The notes beneath the pieces are model-generated. The model saw only the letters and a list, made by a program, of their open reading frames with translations, made no database searches and had not been told where the DNA came from. Positions 1-29,655 of a stretch of DNA of 64,000 nucleotides are shown here, one piece after another. The stretch comes from Armatimonadota bacterium (GTDB lineage: Bacteria > Armatimonadota > Fimbriimonadia > Fimbriimonadales > Fimbriimonadaceae). Within the stretch, counting starts at the first letter, position 1, and each line of letters opens with the position of its first letter. The stretch is from contig JANYCU010000009.1 in NCBI GenBank assembly GCA_025360125.1, positions 1 through 64,000 on the forward strand, written 5' to 3'. A program made the position numbers and the translations under genes.

Positions 1-87
1 TGATCGTTTACTATCTGACATCTAAATGTTTGAACCTGAGGGCCAATACCCCCTTTGACAGATGTCCAACTTTACCCGTCCCCTACA
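1..87 (-). mobile_element. IS3-family element, left end of a second copy (partial)
   Basis: These 87 bases are the exact reverse complement of 6636-6722, the left end of the complete IS3-family copy further right. They end in the 25-bp terminal inverted repeat (63-87). The element therefore continues off the left edge of the window. Bases 1-21 encode the first seven residues of its OrfA on the minus strand. Full identity over 87 bases points to recent transposition. The flanking trinucleotide CAC (88-90) is the presumed target duplication, whose partner lies outside the window. Confidence 0.9.
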
Positions 88-117
88 CACCGACCTCTTT
101 TCAAAAAGAGGTAACTA
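88..117 (+). repeat. Palindromic half of composite repeat module (copy 1)
   Basis: Stem ACCTCTTTT (93-101) pairs with AAAAGAGGT (104-112), preceded by the foot CACCGA and followed by AACTA. It is the same palindrome as at 2625-2651, 2786-2812, 3224-3250 and 6609-6635. Its upstream box is not visible because the IS copy at 1-87 is inserted three bases before CGACCTC. The stretch 118-226 to its right holds nothing I can recognise. Confidence 0.8.
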
Positions 118-226
118 ATGCTCACCAAATCAAAAAGGTCGTTTTGTGCGCAAGACTTCACTCAATGAATTTTGGAGGAACATGGACACTGATAAGCTCC
201 AGAAATGACAGTTTTATAGGGATCGG

Positions 227-1624
227 CTAAGCATGCCACGAGCGATTTGCCAACTCTGCCATCTGTTTTGCCAGGTCGCTGATCTTTACCTCGCGGTAAT
301 TCAGCAGGTGCGAGCGCATCGTGTCATTGAACAGCTCAGACCAATGGGGCGGAATCTTGTCCACTCCGTTAACGATTCCCCAAACCGAGCCAGCAGTGGC
401 GCCGTTGCAGTCGGTATCGAATCCGGGCATGACCGCTCGCGTAATGGTCAGACCAAAGTCGTTTTCCCCCCACAAGAGCGCGATGGACACAAGCATGGCG
501 TTCGAGATGGTGTGGCACCAACCGTGGGCCGTGGTCTCGTCCCACTTGGCGTGGACGATGCTTACGGCTTCGTCGTATGACTTCCCTTCTTTGTGAGCAT
601 TTAGGATGGAGTCGATGTCCTCTCGCAGACGGCAATTGGTCGGCACGTAAGAGAGTCCGATTTGGATGATCTTTCGGTAGTCGCTCTCAACGTAGGCGGC
701 AGCCAGCATCGCGGCGACCCACATTTCGCCGTAGATCCCGTTTTTGATGTGACTGATTGAGGCGTCGCGCCAGGCACATTCGGCAGCTTGCAGGGGGTTG
801 CCTGGATTGAGGTAGCCGAAAGCATCGGCGCGAATCTGGGCACCGATCCATTCTCGATAGGGGTTTCGGAAGGTCGCACTGTCCGGAGGGAGCACGCTGA
901 TGGTGAAGTTTCGGTAAGCGACGCGCTCAGCGGTGCACATCATGAAGAGCGGGAGGTTAGCGCACCAGTATTCGGCAACGTCGACGGGGCGGAAGTCTTC
1001 ACCGTACTTTTTGACGATGTCGAATCCTGCGATGGTGTAGTTGATATCGTCGTCTTCGACCGCGCTGACGAGCTTGTCTCGCGTCCAATTCTCGGCCCAT
1101 CCAAGTTCAGTTCGCTTGGATCGTCCGCGGATCAGAGCTCGCTCCACCATGTTCGGTTCCCGAACATAATCCGCGAGCGGCCAGTTGCCGGTCTCCTCGC
1201 ACCACGCTTGGATTTCGGGTTTGCGCCACCCTTCGAATGGCTTGCCGAGCATGCATCCGCATATGCGTCCAAGGAGTCCGCCGTGCAGTCTTCTCAGTAA
1301 TTCGGTACTGTTTCCTTCGAATTTCGGAATCTCAAATTGTTCGGATACCGAATGAATATCACCAAGATCAGACGGCTCCGAATACTCGTAATTCTTTCGA
1401 ATGGGGCATCGCTGTACCTTTTCCAAAAGCTCTCCCACTTGGCGATGCCAGGCGACGCCCTTTGGCCCTTTCATTCCGGCGGCGATGAGGGAATGGAATT
1501 CAGGCTCTAAAAGCGAAATGTCGAATCCTTCTTCTTGGGCCTGACGAAGTTCGATTTCTGGTTCGGCAGCAGTGAGCCATACCTGCTTGTTCATCCACTG
1601 GGCGGTCAGTTCATCTTGGGTCAT
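227..1624 (-). CDS. ADP-ribosylglycohydrolase family protein
   Basis: 465 residues. The ADP-ribosylglycohydrolase (DraG/ARH) fold begins near residue 112. The glycine-rich segment GLLGRICGCMLGKPFEGW spans 116-133, an acidic EDDD stretch lies at 190-193 and the hallmark GFDTDCNGATAGSVWG at 401-416; in the family these acidic residues bind two Mg ions and ADP-ribose. Family members remove ADP-ribose from proteins or small molecules; the substrate here cannot be told. About 110 N-terminal residues are an extension beyond the usual ~300-residue domain. It ends just right of the palindrome and IS end. The first residues, MTQDELTAQWMN, recur in two short remnants at 2465-2542 and 2659-2703. The M48 protease gene ends 15 bases upstream, so the two may be co-transcribed. 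Confidence 0.85.
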   Translation of the reverse strand: MTQDELTAQWMNKQVWLTAAEPEIELRQAQEEGFDISLLEPEFHSLIAAGMKGPKGVAWHRQVGELLEKVQRCPIRKNYEYSEPSDLGDIHSVSEQFEIPKFEGNSTELLRRLHGGLLGRICGCMLGKPFEGWRKPEIQAWCEETGNWPLADYVREPNMVERALIRGRSKRTELGWAENWTRDKLVSAVEDDDINYTIAGFDIVKKYGEDFRPVDVAEYWCANLPLFMMCTAERVAYRNFTISVLPPDSATFRNPYREWIGAQIRADAFGYLNPGNPLQAAECAWRDASISHIKNGIYGEMWVAAMLAAAYVESDYRKIIQIGLSYVPTNCRLREDIDSILNAHKEGKSYDEAVSIVHAKWDETTAHGWCHTISNAMLVSIALLWGENDFGLTITRAVMPGFDTDCNGATAGSVWGIVNGVDKIPPHWSELFNDTMRSHLLNYREVKISDLAKQMAELANRSWHA

Positions 1625-1639
1625 TGCGTTTCCGCGAGC

Positions 1640-2461
1640 TTACTTCAGTCCAGCTAGGATGGCGCTTACTTCCGCTTCAACCTTCGCATTGGCGCACGTG
1701 GCCCTCGGCTTACCTTCCTCGAAGTCCATCGCTTGCTGGATTCGTGCCTCTTTTGAGGGGTAGCCGTGCGGTTTGTTCTTGGCACCGCCGTGCTTCATTG
1801 CCTCCAGCGCCTCTACCGCCCCAACCGACGTCCCCATCTGCACCATTGACACATAATCGCATGCCAGTTCTGTGTCCCGAGTGAAGTCCCGCCCCTCTAT
1901 TGCAGCAAAAGTAGTCGTGGCGAAAATGAGGATGATAAGCACAAGGACGATGATAGCCCCCACCCAAGAAAACTCAAGCCTTTGACTAATTCCAAGAAGG
2001 CAAAGAAGAACGATGGCAACGCGAGCCGTCCGCTTTGCAGTGATACTCGGGTCGCCGTCCAGGAGATCGAAGAACTTTTGATGGGTTAGCTCGTGCCCAA
2101 TGAGCCAATCGATGGCTTCTTTGGATAGTTGGTCAAGCGACGCTTTCGAAATATACACAGTTTTTCGGGAGCAGAGAGCATTAACATTCTTGCCACTTGA
2201 GGTCTTCAGCGACATCCCCGACAGACGAAATCTGAGGACCAGTTCGCTGAACGAACCTTGCAGTTCAGACGTGAGTCCAGCATTATCCACCCATCCAATC
2301 ATTGAATAGCGAATAAATGCACCCATGAACCATATCTGCAAGCAGAACATGGTGATGGGCATATTCTGCAGTTTCAATCCGGTTGCCCTGTGAATTGCAA
2401 ACGCGACTATGTCTAGCCCAATCCCGATAAAGATGATTAATGGAGACAAGACAGGGAGCAT
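1640..2461 (-). CDS. M48-family membrane metalloprotease
   Basis: 273 residues with hydrophobic segments near 5-25, 35-55, 148-160 and 166-188. The zinc motif HELTH is at 123-127, and Glu198 in TELACDYVS (with Asp202) is the expected third zinc ligand. This is the HtpX/Ste24-type arrangement, a membrane protease with its active site next to the helices; the usual role is turnover of membrane or secreted proteins, but the substrate is unknown. It lies between a 25-codon remnant ORF, whose stop is three bases before this ATG, and the ADP-ribosylglycohydrolase gene. Translational coupling to the remnant ORF is possible. Confidence 0.8.
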   Translation of the reverse strand: MLPVLSPLIIFIGIGLDIVAFAIHRATGLKLQNMPITMFCLQIWFMGAFIRYSMIGWVDNAGLTSELQGSFSELVLRFRLSGMSLKTSSGKNVNALCSRKTVYISKASLDQLSKEAIDWLIGHELTHQKFFDLLDGDPSITAKRTARVAIVLLCLLGISQRLEFSWVGAIIVLVLIILIFATTTFAAIEGRDFTRDTELACDYVSMVQMGTSVGAVEALEAMKHGGAKNKPHGYPSKEARIQQAMDFEEGKPRATCANAKVEAEVSAILAGLK

Positions 2462-2464
2462 CGG

Positions 2465-2542
2465 CTAACCATTCACCCGCGACCAGCCGGGGAGCAAATC
2501 CTCTCTGTTCATCCACTGGGCGATCAGTTCGTCTTGGGTCAT
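2465..2542 (-). pseudogene. Short ORF resembling the start of the ADP-ribosylglycohydrolase gene
   Basis: A 25-codon ORF whose first residues MTQDELIAQWMN nearly repeat the N-terminus of the 227-1624 gene (MTQDELTAQWMN), after which the two diverge. It stops three bases before the M48 protease start. It could be a duplicated 5' fragment left by recombination, or it could act as a short leader peptide coupled to the protease. The composite module A lies just upstream of it on the minus strand. I see the similarity directly; the origin is inference. Confidence 0.5.
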
Positions 2543-2570
2543 CCTCTTGGGGAAAGCATACTCCGTTGAA

Positions 2571-2651
2571 TCTAATCTCCCGGTTTGTTTTGCTGTTTCG
2601 ATTCCTTTTAACGGATAAAACGCACCGACCTCTTTTCCAAAAAGAGGTAAC
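2571..2651 (+). repeat. Composite repeat module A (box + palindrome)
   Basis: The box TCTAATCTCCCGGTTTG (2571-2587) is followed after 37 bases by the palindrome CCGACCTCTTTTCC plus AAAAAGAGGTAAC (2625-2651). The stem is ACCTCTTTT/AAAAGAGGT (2628-2636 with 2640-2648). The same two parts in the same order and orientation recur in module B and, inverted, in modules C and D. The spacer differs between copies while box and palindrome are kept. Confidence 0.8.
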
Positions 2652-2658
2652 TAGCTGG

Positions 2659-2703
2659 TCACCGCTTATAGATCCACTCGGCGATCGATTCGTCGTAAGT
2701 CAT
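2659..2703 (-). pseudogene. Second short remnant ORF like the ADP-ribosylglycohydrolase N-terminus
   Basis: Fourteen codons, MTYDESIAEWIYKR then stop, comparable to MTQDELIAQWMNRE of the neighbouring remnant. The stop abuts the palindrome of module A (seven bases away), and module B lies 26 bases upstream of its start. The order remnant-module-remnant-module suggests a duplication of a unit containing both. No longer reading frame continues from it. Confidence 0.4.
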
Positions 2704-2729
2704 TGTCTAGTCAATTGACTCACTTGGAC

Positions 2730-2812
2730 CTAATCTCCCGGTTTGCCAAGCGATTTTGAATTCAGATTTCAATAGATTTGGCGCGCCGACCTCTTTTCCC
2801 AAAAGAGGTAAT
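2730..2812 (+). repeat. Composite repeat module B (box + palindrome)
   Basis: Box CTAATCTCCCGGTTTG (2730-2745) and palindrome CCGACCTCTTTTCCC plus AAAAGAGGTAATT (2786-2812). It has the same orientation as module A and is inverted relative to module C. Modules B and C flank the DUF559 gene as an inverted pair, about 575 bp from outer box to outer box. Confidence 0.8.
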
Positions 2813-2860
2813 TGTGACGTCATGAACTACAATTTGATTATAGTAGAATAATATCTACAT

Positions 2861-3217
2861 ATGGCAGACGGAAAACGGAAAAAGTAAGCGCGATATCTCA
2901 GGAACAACATGAGTTTCCCAGAGATTTTGCTTTGGCTGCGAATTCAAAACGATCAGCTTGGATATCGAATTAATCGTCAGCTTCCATTCGGCAACTACAT
3001 ATTGGATTTCTATTGTGCCGAGCTTCGCGTCGCGATAGAAGTTGACGGCGGCGACCATGCGTTTCGCGTCAAAAAGGACCGTGCGCGCGACGAGTGGTTG
3101 AAGAACGAAGGCATCATCGTTCACCGAGTTCCAGCCCGGCTAGTCCTTGCTGATTCCTTCGTTACGGCCGAATTACTCAAAGTCTTTCTAGACGATTTAA
3201 ATGCCTCGAGAGCCTAG
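2861..3217 (+). pseudogene. DUF559 (Vsr-like) endonuclease gene with in-frame stop
   Basis: From ATG 2861 the frame reads MADGKRKK, then TAA (2885-2887), then ARYLRNNMSFPEILLW and onward. The intact homologue at 6247 reads MATKKKKL-ANHLRNHMTLPEVLLW, so the stop replaces a Leu codon, most simply TTA to TAA. Translation could restart at ATG 2909, giving 102 residues that keep the nuclease core: YILDFYC with its Asp, the VEVDGG strand and the RVP strand. DUF559 proteins have a restriction-endonuclease/Vsr-like fold and are presumed DNA nickases or nucleases; no partner methylase is nearby. Whether the truncated form is active is unknown. It is flanked by inverted repeat modules B and C, like cargo between terminal repeats. 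Confidence 0.75.
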
Positions 3218-3223
3218 GTCTAG

Positions 3224-3305
3224 TTACCTCTTTTTGGAAAAGAGGTCGGTGAGCCAATTCCGTTGAGAAAAGTGGAAAATGCTTCGCGAACCGGGAGATT
3301 AGATT
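3224..3305 (-). repeat. Composite repeat module C (inverted)
   Basis: Read on the minus strand it has the box AATCTAATCTCCCGGTTCG (3287-3305) followed by the palindrome (3224-3250). It starts seven bases after the DUF559 stop and ends 16 bases from the stop of the minus-strand membrane gene at 3322. The palindrome with its adjoining T-tract could also act as a terminator for the nuclease gene. Confidence 0.8.
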
Positions 3306-3321
3306 GAGACATCGTTAAAAG

Positions 3322-3717
3322 TCACTTGGCAATGACTTCTTTTGACTTCTTCGCAATTTTTTGAAGTGGCATAAAGCCAAGCAGGGTGACCGCAAGACCG
3401 AGAGCGATCAGGAAACTTCCAAGGTATGCGTTTCGGATCAAGCAACCCACGGTTCCTAAGCTCATACCGAAAGTCGTAGCCATAAACGAAATCAACACCC
3501 AAATCTTTCCGCTCACTGGAATCTCTTCCCTCTGAACCGTAGCAAAGAATATAGTCTTCATCATTGGCCCTACCATGAAGAAAAATGGGGCAGGTACAAA
3601 AGAAGTCCCGAAATTGCGCAGAAATACTAAATTGAGTCCGTAGCAGACGGGGCCAAGTATAACTGATACGGCAATTAGGCTTAGCAATTCAGTTTTGGTG
3701 AGCCTTCCTGGTTTCAT
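3322..3717 (-). CDS. Small four-helix membrane protein, unknown function
   Basis: 131 residues with four likely membrane helices (about 10-33, 40-58, 68-90, 95-117) and a lysine-rich C-terminus, IAKKSKEVIAK, which should lie in the cytoplasm. I do not recognise a family. It is divergent from the DUF3291 gene at 3763, and its 3' end abuts repeat module C. The start ATG at 3717 follows TATAGTGAGGAAAC, in which GAGGA can serve as ribosome-binding site. Confidence 0.6.
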   Translation of the reverse strand: MKPGRLTKTELLSLIAVSVILGPVCYGLNLVFLRNFGTSFVPAPFFFMVGPMMKTIFFATVQREEIPVSGKIWVLISFMATTFGMSLGTVGCLIRNAYLGSFLIALGLAVTLLGFMPLQKIAKKSKEVIAK

Positions 3718-3762
3718 GTTTCCTCACTATACCAATCCCCGACATTGGACTAAACTATCCAA

Positions 3763-4212
3763 ATGCCTGAGTACCACCTCGCGCAGATCAATATCGCCCA
3801 GATGAAGGCGCCGCTTCACCACCCCTCAATGAAGTCGTTTCTGGATCAAATCGCCGAGATGAACGACCTCGCGGAGGCGAGCCCCGGCTTCGTCTGGCGG
3901 CTTAAAGACCAGTACGGCGACGCCACCAGCATTCGGCCATTTGGCAGCACCATCCTGGTCAACATGTCGGTCTGGGAGAGTCCCGAGCAACTGATGGATT
4001 ACTCGTACAAGAGCGCCCACAAGGAGGTCATGCAGAATCGAAAGGAGTGGTTTGACCCGATGGAGGAAGCGCACCTGGCGATGTGGTGGGTTCCGGCGGG
4101 CTATGAACCCACGATCGAGGAGGCAAAGGCCAAACTCGAATACCTGTTTGCCCACGGCGAGACCGAGCGAGCCTTTACGTTCCGAAACGTGTTCCCGATT
4201 CCAACCCAATGA
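3763..4212 (+). CDS. DUF3291 domain-containing protein
   Basis: 149 residues resembling DUF3291, a dimeric ferredoxin-like (antibiotic-biosynthesis-monooxygenase-like) fold. Family features visible are the opening YHLAQINIAQMKAPL, the PGFVWRL segment, SVWESPEQLMDYSY and the closing AMWWVPAGYEPT (about 108-119). No enzymatic activity is established for the family. Its stop overlaps the ATPase start by four bases (ATGA), so the two are one translationally coupled operon. The start lies about 10 bases after a possible -10 box, TAAACT. Confidence 0.75.
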   Translation: MPEYHLAQINIAQMKAPLHHPSMKSFLDQIAEMNDLAEASPGFVWRLKDQYGDATSIRPFGSTILVNMSVWESPEQLMDYSYKSAHKEVMQNRKEWFDPMEEAHLAMWWVPAGYEPTIEEAKAKLEYLFAHGETERAFTFRNVFPIPTQ

Positions 4213-5012
4213 GCAACGTCGGCAACGCTTTCATCAATTCGGTGCGGTACATCCTCCTCGACCAAATCGATTGGGAAACTTATCCCTTCAACATTCCGGC
4301 GGTGGCGAAACTAACCCAGGTCAGCCTCAATCAGCCGATTACCATCTTCATCGGCGAGAATGGAACCGGGAAATCGACGATCATCGAGGGGCTGGCGGCG
4401 ATGCTTGGCATCAATGCCGAGGGAGGCTCGAAGAATTTCAACTTCAAAACTGTTCAAACTCATTCAATCCTTCGAGAGCACATTGCTCCAAATCGAAATG
4501 AACTTCGCGAAGGATCATCCTATTTTCTTCGGGCTGAGACGATGTACAACGTCTTTACCGAAATGGCCTATCTCGACGATGTCGATGCCTCATATAGCAA
4601 ATCGAATTACGACGGCGACGGGAATTTCTTGTCGGTCGACCCCCTGCGCTTCAGTGAAAAATATGGCAACAGCCGAATGCATCAGATGTCGCACGGCGAA
4701 AGCTTTTTCGAGCAGCTCTCCCGGTTCCGCAAGAACGGCCTTTACATCCTAGACGAGCCCGAGGCCGCCCTCAGTCCAAATCGCCAACTCGCGGCAGTAA
4801 AACTGCTCCATGACCTCGCGTTTCATCAGTCCTGCCAGATTTTCATGGCCACCCACTCGCCAATACTGCTTGCCATTCCGGGTGCCAAGATTTACCAGCT
4901 CAGCGGCGATGGAATTGAAGCGGTTGAATACGAAGATACCGAACTCTTTCGCACCTACTGGGCGTTTATGAAAAACCCAAAGTCGTTTATTGATCGTCTC
5001 TTTCGAGACTAG
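4209..5012 (+). CDS. AAA/ABC-type ATPase of the OLD/RecF-like class
   Basis: 267 residues with a full ABC-like ATP site: Walker A GENGTGKST (49-57), signature-like SHGES (161-165), Walker B LYILDEPEAALS (178-189) and a switch-His segment ATHSP (214-218). The long coiled coil of SMC/Rad50 proteins is absent, so it resembles the compact AAA_21/AAA_23 ATPases often annotated as ABC transporter ATP-binding or predicted ATPase. No permease or nuclease domain accompanies it. It overlaps the DUF3291 gene by ATGA. Cytoplasmic; partner unknown. Confidence 0.8.
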   Translation: MSNVGNAFINSVRYILLDQIDWETYPFNIPAVAKLTQVSLNQPITIFIGENGTGKSTIIEGLAAMLGINAEGGSKNFNFKTVQTHSILREHIAPNRNELREGSSYFLRAETMYNVFTEMAYLDDVDASYSKSNYDGDGNFLSVDPLRFSEKYGNSRMHQMSHGESFFEQLSRFRKNGLYILDEPEAALSPNRQLAAVKLLHDLAFHQSCQIFMATHSPILLAIPGAKIYQLSGDGIEAVEYEDTELFRTYWAFMKNPKSFIDRLFRD

Positions 5013-5085
5013 GCACCTTCTCGCTGCCTCCGCAGCCCGAATAGGATACAAATAGTCCAAGCGCTGGCCTCAGAATGAGTCAAAT

Positions 5086-5125
5086 TTATGCTGTGGTGGC
5101 TTCGAGTCTAGCCTCCACAGCATAA
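5086..5125. terminator. Long hairpin after the ATPase gene
   Basis: Inverted repeat TTATGCTGTGG-T-GGC / GCC-T-CCACAGCATAA with a 10-base loop. There is no T-tract after it, so it may be a terminator-like or structural hairpin rather than a classical intrinsic terminator. The rest of the 222-bp gap 5013-5234 holds nothing else I can recognise. Confidence 0.4.
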
Positions 5126-5234
5126 GCGCTTACCGCTAGAAAGTTGCTCACAAACGTCAGGGCTTACGCTGATTGGGCTGCGGAGGCAGCAATTCCCCCC
5201 GGCGGAGCGTTATCTAAGACTAAACTGTACATAA

Positions 5235-5741
5235 ATGTCGTTCATCATTCGTCTCGGAACGGTAGACGATGCAGCTGGCATTGCGAATGTCCAGGTTTCC
5301 ACCTGGCGAGATGCCTACGCCACCATCATCGACCCCGAATTCCTCAGGAATTTTAGCCTCGAAGAAGCGACGAAGACCCAAATTGAACGCATCGAAACTG
5401 ATGGTGCTTACCGACTCGTTGCGCTTATCGAGAGTCAAGTGGTTGGATACGCGGTCTCGAATGTGAAGAAGGATGAGCCGTTCACCAACGACTGGTTCAT
5501 GTTCGCCCTCTACGTCCTTCCCAAGTGCCAAGGTCTCGGAATAGGCAAGGCGCTGATTAGCGGCACCATCGCCAAAGGACGCAAACGCGGATTTAGTCGC
5601 CTGGTCTTTGGGGTGTTCAGTGAGAACGAACCTTCCAAGGAGTTCTATCGACGCCAAGGCGCCCAATTCGTCGAGCGCCTTGACTTCGGAGTCGGCGGGA
5701 AGGTCTACCCTACGGATTATTGTCAGATTTTGATCCACTGA
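5235..5741 (+). CDS. GNAT-family N-acetyltransferase
   Basis: 168 residues of a single GNAT domain. The acetyl-CoA pyrophosphate loop is CQGLGIGKAL (98-107), preceded by the strand ALYVLPK and followed by the C-terminal GVFSENEPSKEFYRRQGA, in which the FY helix-strand typical of the family is seen. The N-terminus IIRLGTVDDAAGIANVQVSTWRDAY matches the common start of these proteins. The acceptor substrate cannot be predicted. It stands alone, followed by the tandem palindrome array. Confidence 0.85.
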   Translation: MSFIIRLGTVDDAAGIANVQVSTWRDAYATIIDPEFLRNFSLEEATKTQIERIETDGAYRLVALIESQVVGYAVSNVKKDEPFTNDWFMFALYVLPKCQGLGIGKALISGTIAKGRKRGFSRLVFGVFSENEPSKEFYRRQGAQFVERLDFGVGGKVYPTDYCQILIH

Positions 5742-5757
5742 CAAATTTACTCCCACG

Positions 5758-6195
5758 GTTCGCCTGACCAGTACCAAAAAAAATTCAATGGTTCAGGCTC
5801 ACCGATCCCTCTTAAGAAAAAAGGGATATCTCCGCTCTGGACTAATTAAGTGTTTGGTTCCCGATGACAAAGAAAATCGCATCGACAATTCTAAGTCACA
5901 GTGAAACAAATTACTCTTGGGAACTTCGTTCCTCCAGTTCGCCTGACCAGTACCGATAAAGAGTTCAACGGTTCAGGCTCACCGATCCCTCTTAAGAAAA
6001 AAAGGGATATCTCCGCTGTGGACTAATTAAGTGTTTGGGTCCCGATGACAAAGAAAATCGCATCGACAATTCTAAGTCACAGTGAAACAAATTACTCTTG
6101 GGAACTTCGTTCCTCCTGTTCGCCTGACCAGTACCGATTAAAAGTTCAACGGTTCAGGCTCACCGATCCCTCTTAAGAAAAAAAGGGATATCTCG
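5758..6195. repeat. Tandem array of ~180-bp repeat units with palindromes
   Basis: About 2.4 nearly identical units start with CGCCTGACCAGTACC at 5761, 5940 and 6121, a period of 179-181 bases. Each unit holds an imperfect hairpin GCCTGACC/GGTTCAGGC, then the foot CACCGA and palindrome TCCCTCTT-AAGAAAAAAGGGATATC (5800-5830, 5980-6011, 6160-6192), then about 110 bases ending in the mini-hairpin GGAACTTCGTTCC. The third unit is cut off just after its palindrome. Spacers are identical, so this is a tandem duplication. It lies directly upstream of the second DUF559 gene. The CACCGA foot is shared with the 1-7.9 kb palindrome family. Confidence 0.85.
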
Positions 6196-6206
6196 CAAGG
6201 GACAGA

Positions 6207-6236
6207 TTGACAAAAAACTGAAACCTACTTTATGCT
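6207..6236 (+). promoter_or_regulatory. Promoter of the second DUF559 nuclease gene
   Basis: Consensus -35 TTGACA (6207-6212), an 18-base spacer, and TATGCT (6231-6236). The ATG at 6247 is only 10 bases later, so the transcript would have little or no leader. Confidence 0.6.
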
Positions 6237-6246
6237 TTGGAAATAG

Positions 6247-6621
6247 ATGGCAACAAAGAAGAAGAAGCTGGCAAATCATTTGCGAAACCACATGACTTTG
6301 CCGGAAGTTTTGCTATGGAATCAAATCAAAAGCAGTCAGACGAGTTACGATTTCAATCGACAATTTTGTCTAGGTCCGTATATCGCCGACTTCTATTGTC
6401 GTGAAATTAGACTCGTCGTCGAAGTCGATGGACTCGTTCACGAATTGAAGGCTAAAGCAGATGCCAAACGCGATAATTGGCTGGCAACACACAGAATCGC
6501 AGTACTTCGCATTCCCGCTAAATCAATCCTTAAGAATCCATATTCTGCGGCACAAAGAATCAAGGAACGATTAGTCGAATTAGAAGCCTCGAAGAATCCG
6601 GAGCGAGATACCTCTTTTTGA
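6247..6621 (+). CDS. DUF559 (Vsr-like) endonuclease
   Basis: 124 residues, the usual size of stand-alone DUF559 proteins. The N-terminal basic stretch MATKKKKLANHLRNHMT leads into PEVLLW (19-24). The nuclease core is YIADFYC (45-51) with Asp48, LVVEVDG (56-62) with Glu59 and Asp61, and the later strand AVLRIPA (85-91), matching the restriction-endonuclease/Vsr-like fold. DNA substrate and biological role are unknown. Its last codons (RDTSF) are encoded by the palindrome of module D, so the repeat overlaps the gene end. The tandem palindrome array lies upstream, and the IS3 copy begins 15 bases after the stop. Confidence 0.8.
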   Translation: MATKKKKLANHLRNHMTLPEVLLWNQIKSSQTSYDFNRQFCLGPYIADFYCREIRLVVEVDGLVHELKAKADAKRDNWLATHRIAVLRIPAKSILKNPYSAAQRIKERLVELEASKNPERDTSF

Positions 6622-6701
6622 AAGAGAGGTCGGTATGTAGGGGACGGGTAAAGTTGGACATCTGTCAAAGGGGGTATTGGCCCTCAGGTTCAAACATTTA
6701 G

Positions 6702-7013
6702 ATGTCAGATAGTAAACGATCATTTCGTCATCATTCAGCCGAGTTTAAAGCCCAAGTAGTCCTTGAGTTGGTCAGGGGGGATATCTCGCTCGGAGAAGCT
6801 TCTCGCCGGTATGAGATTAAGGACTCCATGCTTTCACGATGGAAGAAGGAATTCCTGTACAGAGCTCCCATGGTCTTCGGTCAAATTAACAAAGTAGAGA
6901 CTGAGCAACGGCTTTCGGATTTGGAAGTTCTTTTCAAGGAGCAGTCTCTTGAATTGGCCATCTTAAAAAAGGCAGTACATCGCTCACCAAAGACCAGCGG
7001 AGATGCCTCGTGA
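6702..7013 (+). CDS. IS3-family transposase OrfA (HTH)
   Basis: 103 residues. An N-terminal helix-turn-helix of the Tnp_1 class (FRHHSAEFKAQVVLELVRGDISLGEASRRYEI) is followed by a leucine-zipper-like helix around 65-90 (SDLEVLFKEQSLELAILKKAV) that mediates dimerisation in this family. It binds the inverted repeats and is the N-terminal part of the OrfAB transposase. The slippery sequence A-AAA-AAG at 6965-6971 lies in codons 88-90; a -1 shift there enters the orfB frame without meeting a stop. Confidence 0.9.
   Translation: MSDSKRSFRHHSAEFKAQVVLELVRGDISLGEASRRYEIKDSMLSRWKKEFLYRAPMVFGQINKVETEQRLSDLEVLFKEQSLELAILKKAVHRSPKTSGDAS
6965..6971 (+). promoter_or_regulatory. -1 programmed frameshift site of the IS3 element
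   Basis: The heptamer A AAA AAG is in the orfA reading frame (tta-aaa-aag). After a -1 shift the next codon starts at 6971, in phase with the orfB start at 7010 (39 bases = 13 codons, no stop). This yields the OrfAB fusion transposase, as known for IS150/IS911-type elements. Confidence 0.75.
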
Positions 7014-7846
7014 GAGAGTTCTGCCCCGAGTTTGGCATTTCGGCTCTGTGCCGTGTGCTTGAAGTGCCAAGAAGTTCGGCGAACTACAGGGCGAAGGAAA
7101 AGCGGCCCATCGACGTTTCTGAGCTTAAGGCTACGGTCAAGGAGCTTCGCGCCGAGCACCGGAATTACGGCGTTAAACGCATGTATAAACTGCTCGGATA
7201 TAAGGGCATTGCCGCATCCCGCTCAGAAGTCCACCAAGCGTTCAATGAACTTGGAATCCTTAAGAAAGCTCCTCGTAGAACGGTGCGCACGACCGACTCG
7301 AACCACGGATACAAACGGTGGGAAAACCTCATGCTTAATTTGGTCGTTACCCATCCAGATGAAGTTTGGGTTGCAGATGTCACCGGGATCTACCTGAACA
7401 GCCGTTGGGTCTACCTAGCTCTTCTCATGGACGTTTACACGCGGTTCATCGTCGGGTGGGGCGTGAGCAACTATAACGATTCAAACCTCACGCTGGCGGC
7501 GCTCACAAGGGGATTCGCTCTCGGACGCTCACCAGAGATGCATCACAGCGACCAAGGCTCGACGTATGCCTCCACAGAATACATCAGGATCTTGGGAGCT
7601 AGGGGAATCCAGGTTAGCATGGCTTCCGTTGGCGAACCCAGAGAAAATGGATATGCCGAAAGGCTCAACCGAACAGTCAAGGAAGAAGAAGCCAGAACAG
7701 CCGCTTACTTCACTGTCTCCGACGTCCAAAACGGAATCTGCGAATACGTTGAGTACTATAACCAAACACGGCTGCACACATCACTGAAATACAAAACACC
7801 ATTCGATGCTTTTCAACAATTCTGGGAGAAGGAAAAAAATTCGTAA
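7010..7846 (+). CDS. IS3-family transposase OrfB (DDE integrase core)
   Basis: 278 residues from a GTG that overlaps the orfA stop (GTGA). An HTH_21-like segment (40-90) precedes the rve integrase core. The catalytic triad is visible: Asp123 (VWVADVTGI), Asp181 (HHSDQGSTY) and Glu217 (ENGYAERLNR), with exactly 35 residues between the last two, the DD35E spacing. The C-terminal YYNQTRLHTSLKYKTP is typical. It is made mainly as the OrfAB fusion. No disruption is seen, so the copy should be functional. Confidence 0.95.
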   Translation: MREFCPEFGISALCRVLEVPRSSANYRAKEKRPIDVSELKATVKELRAEHRNYGVKRMYKLLGYKGIAASRSEVHQAFNELGILKKAPRRTVRTTDSNHGYKRWENLMLNLVVTHPDEVWVADVTGIYLNSRWVYLALLMDVYTRFIVGWGVSNYNDSNLTLAALTRGFALGRSPEMHHSDQGSTYASTEYIRILGARGIQVSMASVGEPRENGYAERLNRTVKEEEARTAAYFTVSDVQNGICEYVEYYNQTRLHTSLKYKTPFDAFQQFWEKEKNS

Positions 7847-7944
7847 GACCTCTCTCATCTCGTCAAAAACTGTCCAAAATTCCCCGTCCCCTACAGTAAG
7901 CGAGGCACGAGTGAACCGGGAGAGTAGATTATTCTCCGACCAAT

Positions 7945-8259
7945 TTATCCCTCCACAAACTTCTGCAGGGCGTCGAGCTTGCGGTCCCATGCTTTTGCCC
8001 TCGCCGACAACCAGCCCGCGGCTTCATCGAGAACCTCTAAGCGAAGCGAACGAATGATTTCGCGTCCCTTTGCCGTGCTCGTAACCAGGCCAACATTCTC
8101 CAACACAACCAAGTGTTTGGTCGCGGCTTGGCGAGTCATGCCAAGCCCCTCCACCAATTTCATCGTCGTCATCGGGCCCAGATCGCCCAACCGCTCAACC
8201 ATGGTCATTCGAGCTGGGTCACCAAGGGCTTGATAGATGTCGCAGCGAAGGGTGCTCAT
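7945..8259 (-). CDS. ArsR-family winged-helix transcriptional regulator
   Basis: 104 residues from ATG 8259, chosen because it overlaps the SRPBCC stop as ATGA; a longer in-frame start exists upstream but would run deep into that gene. A single winged-helix domain is seen: MSTLRCDIYQALGDPARM, then TMKLVEGLGMTRQAATKHLVVLENVGLV as recognition helix and wing. No metal-binding cysteine pair of the ArsR sensor type is present, so it belongs to the non-metal group commonly paired with AHSA1/SRPBCC genes. The likely operator lies at 9163-9228, upstream of the operon. Expected action: autorepression of the SRPBCC-ArsR pair. Confidence 0.85.
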   Translation of the reverse strand: MSTLRCDIYQALGDPARMTMVERLGDLGPMTTMKLVEGLGMTRQAATKHLVVLENVGLVTSTAKGREIIRSLRLEVLDEAAGWLSARAKAWDRKLDALQKFVEG

Positions 8260-9161
8260 TTTGAATCTGTCACATAGGCCTTGATGAGGTCCATGCAAAT
8301 CGTCCAACCTTGCTTGTTTAGCCCAAGCGAAGTCGCCCGTCGGGATTCTGGAATGGCGTCAAATCCCATCTCTTTGACGACCAATTCGGTTCCACCCTCA
8401 ATCTCTTTCAAGTGAAATTCTACGGTAGTAGTTTCGCTTTCGGGATATTGGTCCCAGTTGCAACCCTCGACTTGGCCCGGGTGCCACTTCCATGCAAACA
8501 GATTTGGCTCCTCACGGGCAACCACCTTTAGCGAGCCACTCTTCTTGCCAAATTGGAAAGTCGATAGTGAGCCCACGGAAAGGTCGCCATCAATCGATGT
8601 GACAAACCATCCGCACAAGCCCTCAACGGTTGCGATTGCACGCCAAACCTTGTCGATTGGAACCATGAACGTTCGTTCGCGAAAGATATCAAACGGAAGC
8701 TTTGGCTGGCGCTCGTCGTTTTCCACCAGCTTGGTGATTTTTGGAAGTTCGGCATCCCATCCGCCCGAATTGGCATTGAACGCGCTCAATCGACGGGATT
8801 CTGGTAGGTTGGCAAAACCGCTCTCGACCATCGTCAGCTTAGTACCTTCACTAACGGATTCAAGCGTAAACTTCACTGTCGTCATTTCGGATGCCGGATA
8901 TTTGTCGATCGGGCAGTCTTCTCCGGGGTGCCATTGGTAAGCAAATTCGATCTTTGGGTTCATCGTGCTGACAAGGGCAAAGCACTCACCATACGGACCG
9001 AAGTCCAGGGTCAACTTCTCCCCTTCGGCAAATCTGCCCTTTACTCCGTAGCTGAACCATCCAGTCCAGCCTTCGGCGGTTGTTAGCGCGTTCCAAACCT
9101 TGTCGACCGATGCGCGTAGCATCATTTCACATCGAATTTCGTTTTCCGTAATTGTGGCCAT
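8256..9161 (-). CDS. Tandem AHSA1/SRPBCC-domain protein
   Basis: 301 residues made of two AHSA1-type SRPBCC domains (about 5-140 and 155-298). Both halves carry the family pattern: a V(W)KVW..L/I..AEG..GWF opening, a central strand with WHPGE/WHPGQ and YPASE/YPESETTTVEF, and a terminal GWD/GWT helix. The fold is a hydrophobic ligand cavity. In bacteria such genes are often paired with ArsR-like regulators, as here, but the ligand is unknown. An internal duplication explains the double length (single-domain members are about 150 residues). It is the first gene of the operon and overlaps the ArsR start. Confidence 0.85.
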   Translation of the reverse strand: MATITENEIRCEMMLRASVDKVWNALTTAEGWTGWFSYGVKGRFAEGEKLTLDFGPYGECFALVSTMNPKIEFAYQWHPGEDCPIDKYPASEMTTVKFTLESVSEGTKLTMVESGFANLPESRRLSAFNANSGGWDAELPKITKLVENDERQPKLPFDIFRERTFMVPIDKVWRAIATVEGLCGWFVTSIDGDLSVGSLSTFQFGKKSGSLKVVAREEPNLFAWKWHPGQVEGCNWDQYPESETTTVEFHLKEIEGGTELVVKEMGFDAIPESRRATSLGLNKQGWTICMDLIKAYVTDSK

Positions 9162-29259: not shown

Positions 29260-29655
29260 GTGGATCACGAGAAAAACAGCAAACAGACTGTCCAAATGGC
29301 GCGAGGACTTCGAAAACGCATGTCACTGCCGGAAGTACTGCTTTGGACCCGCCTCAAACCATCAGTCAATGAGCAGTTTGATATTAGGAGGCAGCATCCT
29401 ATCTTAAGCCGATATGTTCTTGATTTCTTCATTCCTCATCTTCAAATTGCGATCGAAATTGATGGGAAGCATGCTCATGAATTTAAGGAGGAAAGAGACC
29501 AAAAACGACAGGCAGAAATTGAAGCCATCGGTATTTGCTTCGTTAGAATTCCTGCGAGTTGGGTTCTCAGAAGCCCGAGCGAAGTCACAGATTTCATACT
29601 TAGCCTTTGTTCGGGCGAGATCACGACCGATGATCTTGACGACTCACTGAAGTAG
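29260..29655 (+). CDS. DUF559 (Vsr-like) endonuclease, third copy
   Basis: 131 residues from GTG 29260. MSLPEVLLWTRLKP (21-34), YVLDFF (52-57) with Asp55, IAIEIDGKHAHE (63-74) with Glu66 and Asp68, and CFVRIPA (93-99) give the DUF559 nuclease core. It is clearly related to the 2861 and 6247 copies but has a longer acidic C-terminus (TTDDLDDSLK). It follows the secreted protein gene by 13 bases. Downstream (29671-29740) are two long palindromes unlike the P family, so this copy also sits beside palindromic DNA. Confidence 0.8.
   Translation: MDHEKNSKQTVQMARGLRKRMSLPEVLLWTRLKPSVNEQFDIRRQHPILSRYVLDFFIPHLQIAIEIDGKHAHEFKEERDQKRQAEIEAIGICFVRIPASWVLRSPSEVTDFILSLCSGEITTDDLDDSLK

Follow-up and report, generated by a model that had tools for sequence, protein, structure and literature searches.

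An IS3-family insertion sequence in a genome of the Armatimonadota (family Fimbriimonadaceae) very probably encodes a transposase with a preference for a single base of a two-hairpin module that is repeated in the genome. Genome-wide mapping of all copies together with their flanks, as had been proposed in a first-pass annotation of this DNA, places five of the six left ends at the identical base of the module and in the same orientation, after a hairpin of the form ACCTCT..AGAGGT. The modules belong to a class of REP-like repeats that is linked to genes of DUF559 nucleases. The window analysed here, a stretch of 64,000 nucleotides from the start of one contig, contains one complete copy of the element (copy 2), the left end of another (copy 1) and several modules that are unoccupied.

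The sequence features of copy 2 place the element in the IS3 family, since it has a helix-turn-helix OrfA, an rve-domain OrfB with a DD(35)E triad, an overlap of the two frames with an A6G heptamer, and TG ends.

6636..7895, + strand: complete IS3-family element, copy 2 (1260 bp), with the target duplication GTA on both sides
6633..6635, + strand: target duplication GTA, left of copy 2
7896..7898, + strand: target duplication GTA, right of copy 2
6636..6660, + strand: left terminal inverted repeat TGTAGGGGACGGGTAAAGTTGGACA, which agrees with the right end at 22/25 positions
7871..7895, + strand: right terminal inverted repeat, paired with the left end
6702..7013, + strand: OrfA, from its domain match (HTH_Tnp_1, PF01527)
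7010..7846, + strand: OrfB, from its domain match (rve, PF00665) and triad (D-57-D-35-E)
6965..6971, + strand: A6G slippery heptamer, predicted -1 frameshift
1..87, - strand: left end of copy 1, truncated where the contig begins and matching element positions 1-87 with 100% identity
88..90, - strand: presumed target duplication of copy 1 (CAC on the + strand, GTG in module orientation), read from one side

Frameshifting between the overlapping OrfA and OrfB at the A6G heptamer would join them into an OrfAB fusion that is free of internal stops and counts 382 residues with its stop, and the catalytic triad consists of D123, D181 and E217 with a spacer of 35. OrfB matches NF033516 with 228.6 bits (cut-off 160), and the ends are of the IS3 type, with inverted repeats that start with TG and a 3-bp duplication that is GTA or GTG.

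Both copies in the window had been reported to lie at an identical base and in one orientation relative to a palindrome, with a GTA duplication on both sides of copy 2 and identical left-end 87 bases. Re-reading the flanks bears out each of these observations. As a minor correction, the reverse complement beside copy 2 reads CGACCTCTCTTTC and not CGACCTCTTTT. In module orientation the junctions are AGAGAGGTCG-GTA/TGTAGGGG for copy 2 and AAAAGAGGTCG-GTG/TGTAGGGG for copy 1, with the same base and orientation in both.

The 58 contigs of the genome contain one complete copy and nine end fragments, each of which is 100% identical to the query over its own length. Together these make six left and five right ends and hence six copies, a small number of which most are read from one end, with the contigs breaking inside the element. 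Because the ends are identical in all copies, the spread of the element is recent. The five left ends at the module share the flank TACCTC..GAGGT(C/A)GGT(G/A), four of the five right ends run on into the remainder of the same module, and the 3-bp duplication is found wherever both sides can be read. The left end on C56 (GAGGTAGGTG) matches the right end on C17 (GTGAAACC..TTGAACCTGG) in that AGGT pairs with ACCT, as expected of a formerly intact module when the two arms are rejoined. The C37 and C36:1 ends fit C15 and C8 by module type, in either order, and the assembly yielded no right end for copy 1. If insertion were random, at least five of six copies would fall on the 16 sites of the used type with a probability of about 1e-28; the value rises to about 6e-20 when GT[GA] is taken as the only possible target. 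Recognition of the repeat as a target, which was first proposed from two insertions, now has five behind it.

The target had been described as a lone palindrome of about 25 bp that is entered at the foot of its stem and not in its loop. The palindrome is present, but it is only the first half of a module of about 80 nt. Insertion does occur outside the loop of hairpin 1, but the point of entry, at CG/GTG/A (or GTA), is 5 nt outside the foot of this hairpin, on the 5' arm of a second stem. In an alignment made by eye and by script, the parts of the module are, in order, hairpin 1, with a pyrimidine arm, a loop and a purine arm; a stem of four bases; an internal loop with GA on each side; a third stem; and a tail rich in purines. 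With a covariance model trained on eight copies, about 40 credible modules were found in the genome, with the C6 matches doubtful.

6609..6630, + strand: hairpin 1 of the module at copy 2
7896..7928, + strand: rest of this interrupted module (second stem and purine tail AACCGGGAGAGTAGATT)
92..113, - strand: hairpin 1 of the module at copy 1
2571..2651, - strand: unoccupied module (covariance model, 89 bits)
2729..2812, - strand: unoccupied module (covariance model, 82.5 bits)
3223..3303, + strand: unoccupied module (covariance model, 90.7 bits)
5746..5830, - strand: unoccupied module, ATCCCTT variant (covariance model)
5925..6011, - strand: unoccupied module, ATCCCTT variant, in a 181-bp tandem repeat (covariance model)
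6106..6192, - strand: unoccupied module, ATCCCTT variant, in a 181-bp tandem repeat (covariance model)

The four-base second stem covaries (CGGT/ACCG, AGGT/ACCT, CAAT/ATTG, CGAT/ATCG, CAGT/ACTG and CGCT/AGCG), as read by a script that maximised pairing and is consequently biased to pairs, with the place of the stem fixed after hairpin 1 in nearly all copies. All five used modules carry the ACCTC..GAGGT hairpin, a type that accounts for about 16 of the roughly 40 modules, which suggests that sequence matters as well as structure. The three modules of the ATCCCTT type (5746-6192), two of them in 181-bp tandem copies, lie just upstream of a DUF559 gene. Rfam gave no match within positions 1-9000.

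The sixth copy, whose left end is on C39 and whose right end is at C36:82707, is inserted in a cytochrome c-type gene, where GTG is duplicated and the module is absent. Joining the two flanks minus one GTG gives a single open frame of 465 codons that presumably encodes a cytochrome c peroxidase-type protein, a name given by reading the sequence and not by a database match. The 12 bases of the left flank outscore 99.8% of the sampled positions, and 96.5% when the comparison is with positions that end in GTG. A 4-bp stem is also present with the spacing that it has in the module, as it is at 5% of random GTG sites. This site is a weak look-alike of the module site. A copy in unrelated sequence had been named beforehand as the observation that would speak against targeting, and it occurs this once; the other five copies are in the module. 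Because one copy lies in a gene without the module, targeting of the module is a strong preference, neither absolute nor a requirement.

The transposase complex, perhaps through the helix-turn-helix of OrfA, may recognise the AGAGGTCGGTG block, a predicted binding in which the symmetry of the hairpin possibly assists. Recognition would precede the copy-out-paste-in step that is typical of IS3. Because the modules are mostly intergenic, landing in them would rarely harm the host. It is quite possible, though we do not favour it, that the transposase reads a short linear sequence alone (about GGTCGGTG) and that the hairpins are incidental. All used modules have AGAGGTNGGT[GA] in common, the off-module site has GGT..GTG too, and modules of the same architecture with other hairpin sequences are unused. 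However, the nearest relative of the element also lies in a hairpin repeat, one of different sequence, and the off-module site has its stem at the same spacing, though so do one in twenty GTG sites.

Group IIC introns insert at terminator hairpins, and by analogy the transposase or a target-capture complex might read an extruded or single-stranded hairpin. We regard this as unlikely: only the ACCTC subfamily is used, and although the structure of the module is conserved and its second stem covaries, this covariation speaks for a function of the module itself and not for target finding by the element. Duplication of the module together with the element, without independent insertion, would account for element ends that are identical in all copies, but it is contradicted by flanks that differ beyond the module, by hairpin 1 sequences that differ between copies, by duplications that vary (GTG or GTA) and by the copy within a gene, and we consider it highly improbable.

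Our preferred reading, a transposase with a preference for one base of the module, can be set beside the habits of the element's relatives. At E <= 1e-60, these occur in only two other genomes (G058 and G007) of the 291 in the phylum. No relative above 46% OrfB identity was found in these 291 genomes or in a scan of genome contigs, so there are no copies of the same element in other species for comparison; plasmid matches reach at most 41% identity. The nearest relative (G058, another genus; OrfB 46% identical) is inside CTTCCCCC..GGGGGAAG with the duplication TCC. Its hairpin, TTCCCCC..GGGGGAA, occurs at 27 places in G058 with surroundings common to those that were read, and the relative enters it at a point differing from that of the present element; no second copy was found in G058. 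The G007 relative (45%) has two copies, both within CCCAACG tandem repeats and not in hairpins, and reading the locus of a Poribacteria relative did not locate its element ends. A liking for repeats is thus shared among the relatives, but the exact target is not.

DUF559 genes accompany the modules in the window.

2909..3217, + strand: DUF559 gene between modules; a longer family match (2873-3157) holds one stop, and the gene may be degraded
6247..6621, + strand: DUF559 gene whose end overlaps hairpin 1 of the module entered by copy 2

A third DUF559 gene of the window is at 29284-29607, and all three have pyrimidine/purine hairpin modules beside them. A second DUF559 match has one in-frame stop, as does that at 2873-3157, and both may be decaying. 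Most of the 11 DUF559 genes in the genome have such hairpins adjacent. Across the host's family, hairpins with a pyrimidine 5' arm are concentrated around DUF559 genes (3.28 per kb within 500 bp versus 0.41 further out) and are found near DUF559 in 30 of 32 loci, whereas other hairpins do not differ between near and far. Intergenic sequence of this genome alone gives 3.67 per kb near DUF559 versus 0.31 elsewhere, from the small numbers of 12 and 14 hairpins. Of 34 plasmid DUF559 loci, 12 were chosen for their diversity before the flanks were inspected. Every one of the 12 has such hairpins no more than 500 bp away, and eight have them on both sides. These loci come from Alphaproteobacteria, Photobacterium, Deinococcus and Cyanobacteria, which adds three phyla to that of the host, and the Photobacterium locus is rich in such hairpins throughout. 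In Sphingomonas parapaucimobilis, a DUF559 gene flanked by hairpins on both sides lies within an NAD(P) transhydrogenase operon and looks like an insertion. A DUF559 match in Pseudanabaena galeata likewise has hairpins to either side and falls within a single, very long annotated gene.

RAYT was considered as the partner of the modules and rejected: the 10 of 22 Y1_Tnp (RAYT-type) loci that were checked in this genome have no pyrimidine/purine hairpin within 500 bp; they have other palindromes. Two Y1_Tnp genes of this genome carry a palindrome of their own, CCGTGGGTGC..GCACCCACGG. The motif CGTCATTCC, which we take to be that of the CGTC-tagged REP class, is absent from the DUF559 loci examined, and identity with that class is thus not supported.

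The association of DUF559 with these hairpins is well supported, and DUF559 proteins may be what moves the modules. We see even chances that they are the partners, perhaps the movers, of pyrimidine/purine hairpin repeats in several phyla. The arrangement would then resemble REP/RAYT but have an unrelated nuclease at its core, and the IS3 element would prey on it. If DUF559 is the partner, then these repeats, which are common and lack a known mover, and a large set of functionally uncharacterised proteins would explain each other. A literature search that left out most subscription journals found no publication linking DUF559 to such repeats. The target class looks new, and its link to DUF559 is likelier to surprise a specialist than the targeting habit.

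REP/RAYT units consist of repeated intergenic hairpins that flank a small nuclease or transposase gene (PMC2817692). The intergenic modules described here likewise flank a small nuclease gene, but the gene of REP/RAYT is a Y1 transposase and that of the modules is DUF559, a Vsr-like nuclease; work on one DUF559 protein, from Caulobacter, has treated it as a nuclease of this kind (PMC12907096). The CGTC-tagged REPs, which a 2013 survey reported as a class without a dedicated transposase (PMC3733652), might be related to the modules.

The targeting habit is a further case of a known kind. According to their citation in PMC1525189, IS1397 of E. coli and ISKpn1 of Klebsiella are IS3-family elements with REP/PU palindromes as targets. 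The likening to IS1397 in the first-pass annotation is apt. Both of these elements, like the present one, target repeated palindromes; their targets are enterobacterial REPs, whereas the module has a different architecture and lies beside DUF559 genes. ISPsy8 of P. syringae DC3000 is closer still. This IS3-family element also has two ORFs with PF01527 and rve domains and enters one point of a repeated palindrome with a 3-bp duplication, in five of five copies (PMC1525189). However, ISPsy8 enters the REP hairpin at its symmetry axis, and the strand that carries the REP is the same in four cases and the opposite one in the fifth, whereas the present element enters the second-stem arm outside hairpin 1 in a fixed orientation. 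Type 1 REP-targeting insertion sequences have 100% of their copies in the repeat (PMC1525189), as does ISPsy8; here five of six copies share a single insertion point in a repeated extragenic palindrome and one is elsewhere, in the cytochrome c-type gene. With this element, IS3 transposases that land on repeated hairpin modules have a clear example outside Proteobacteria.
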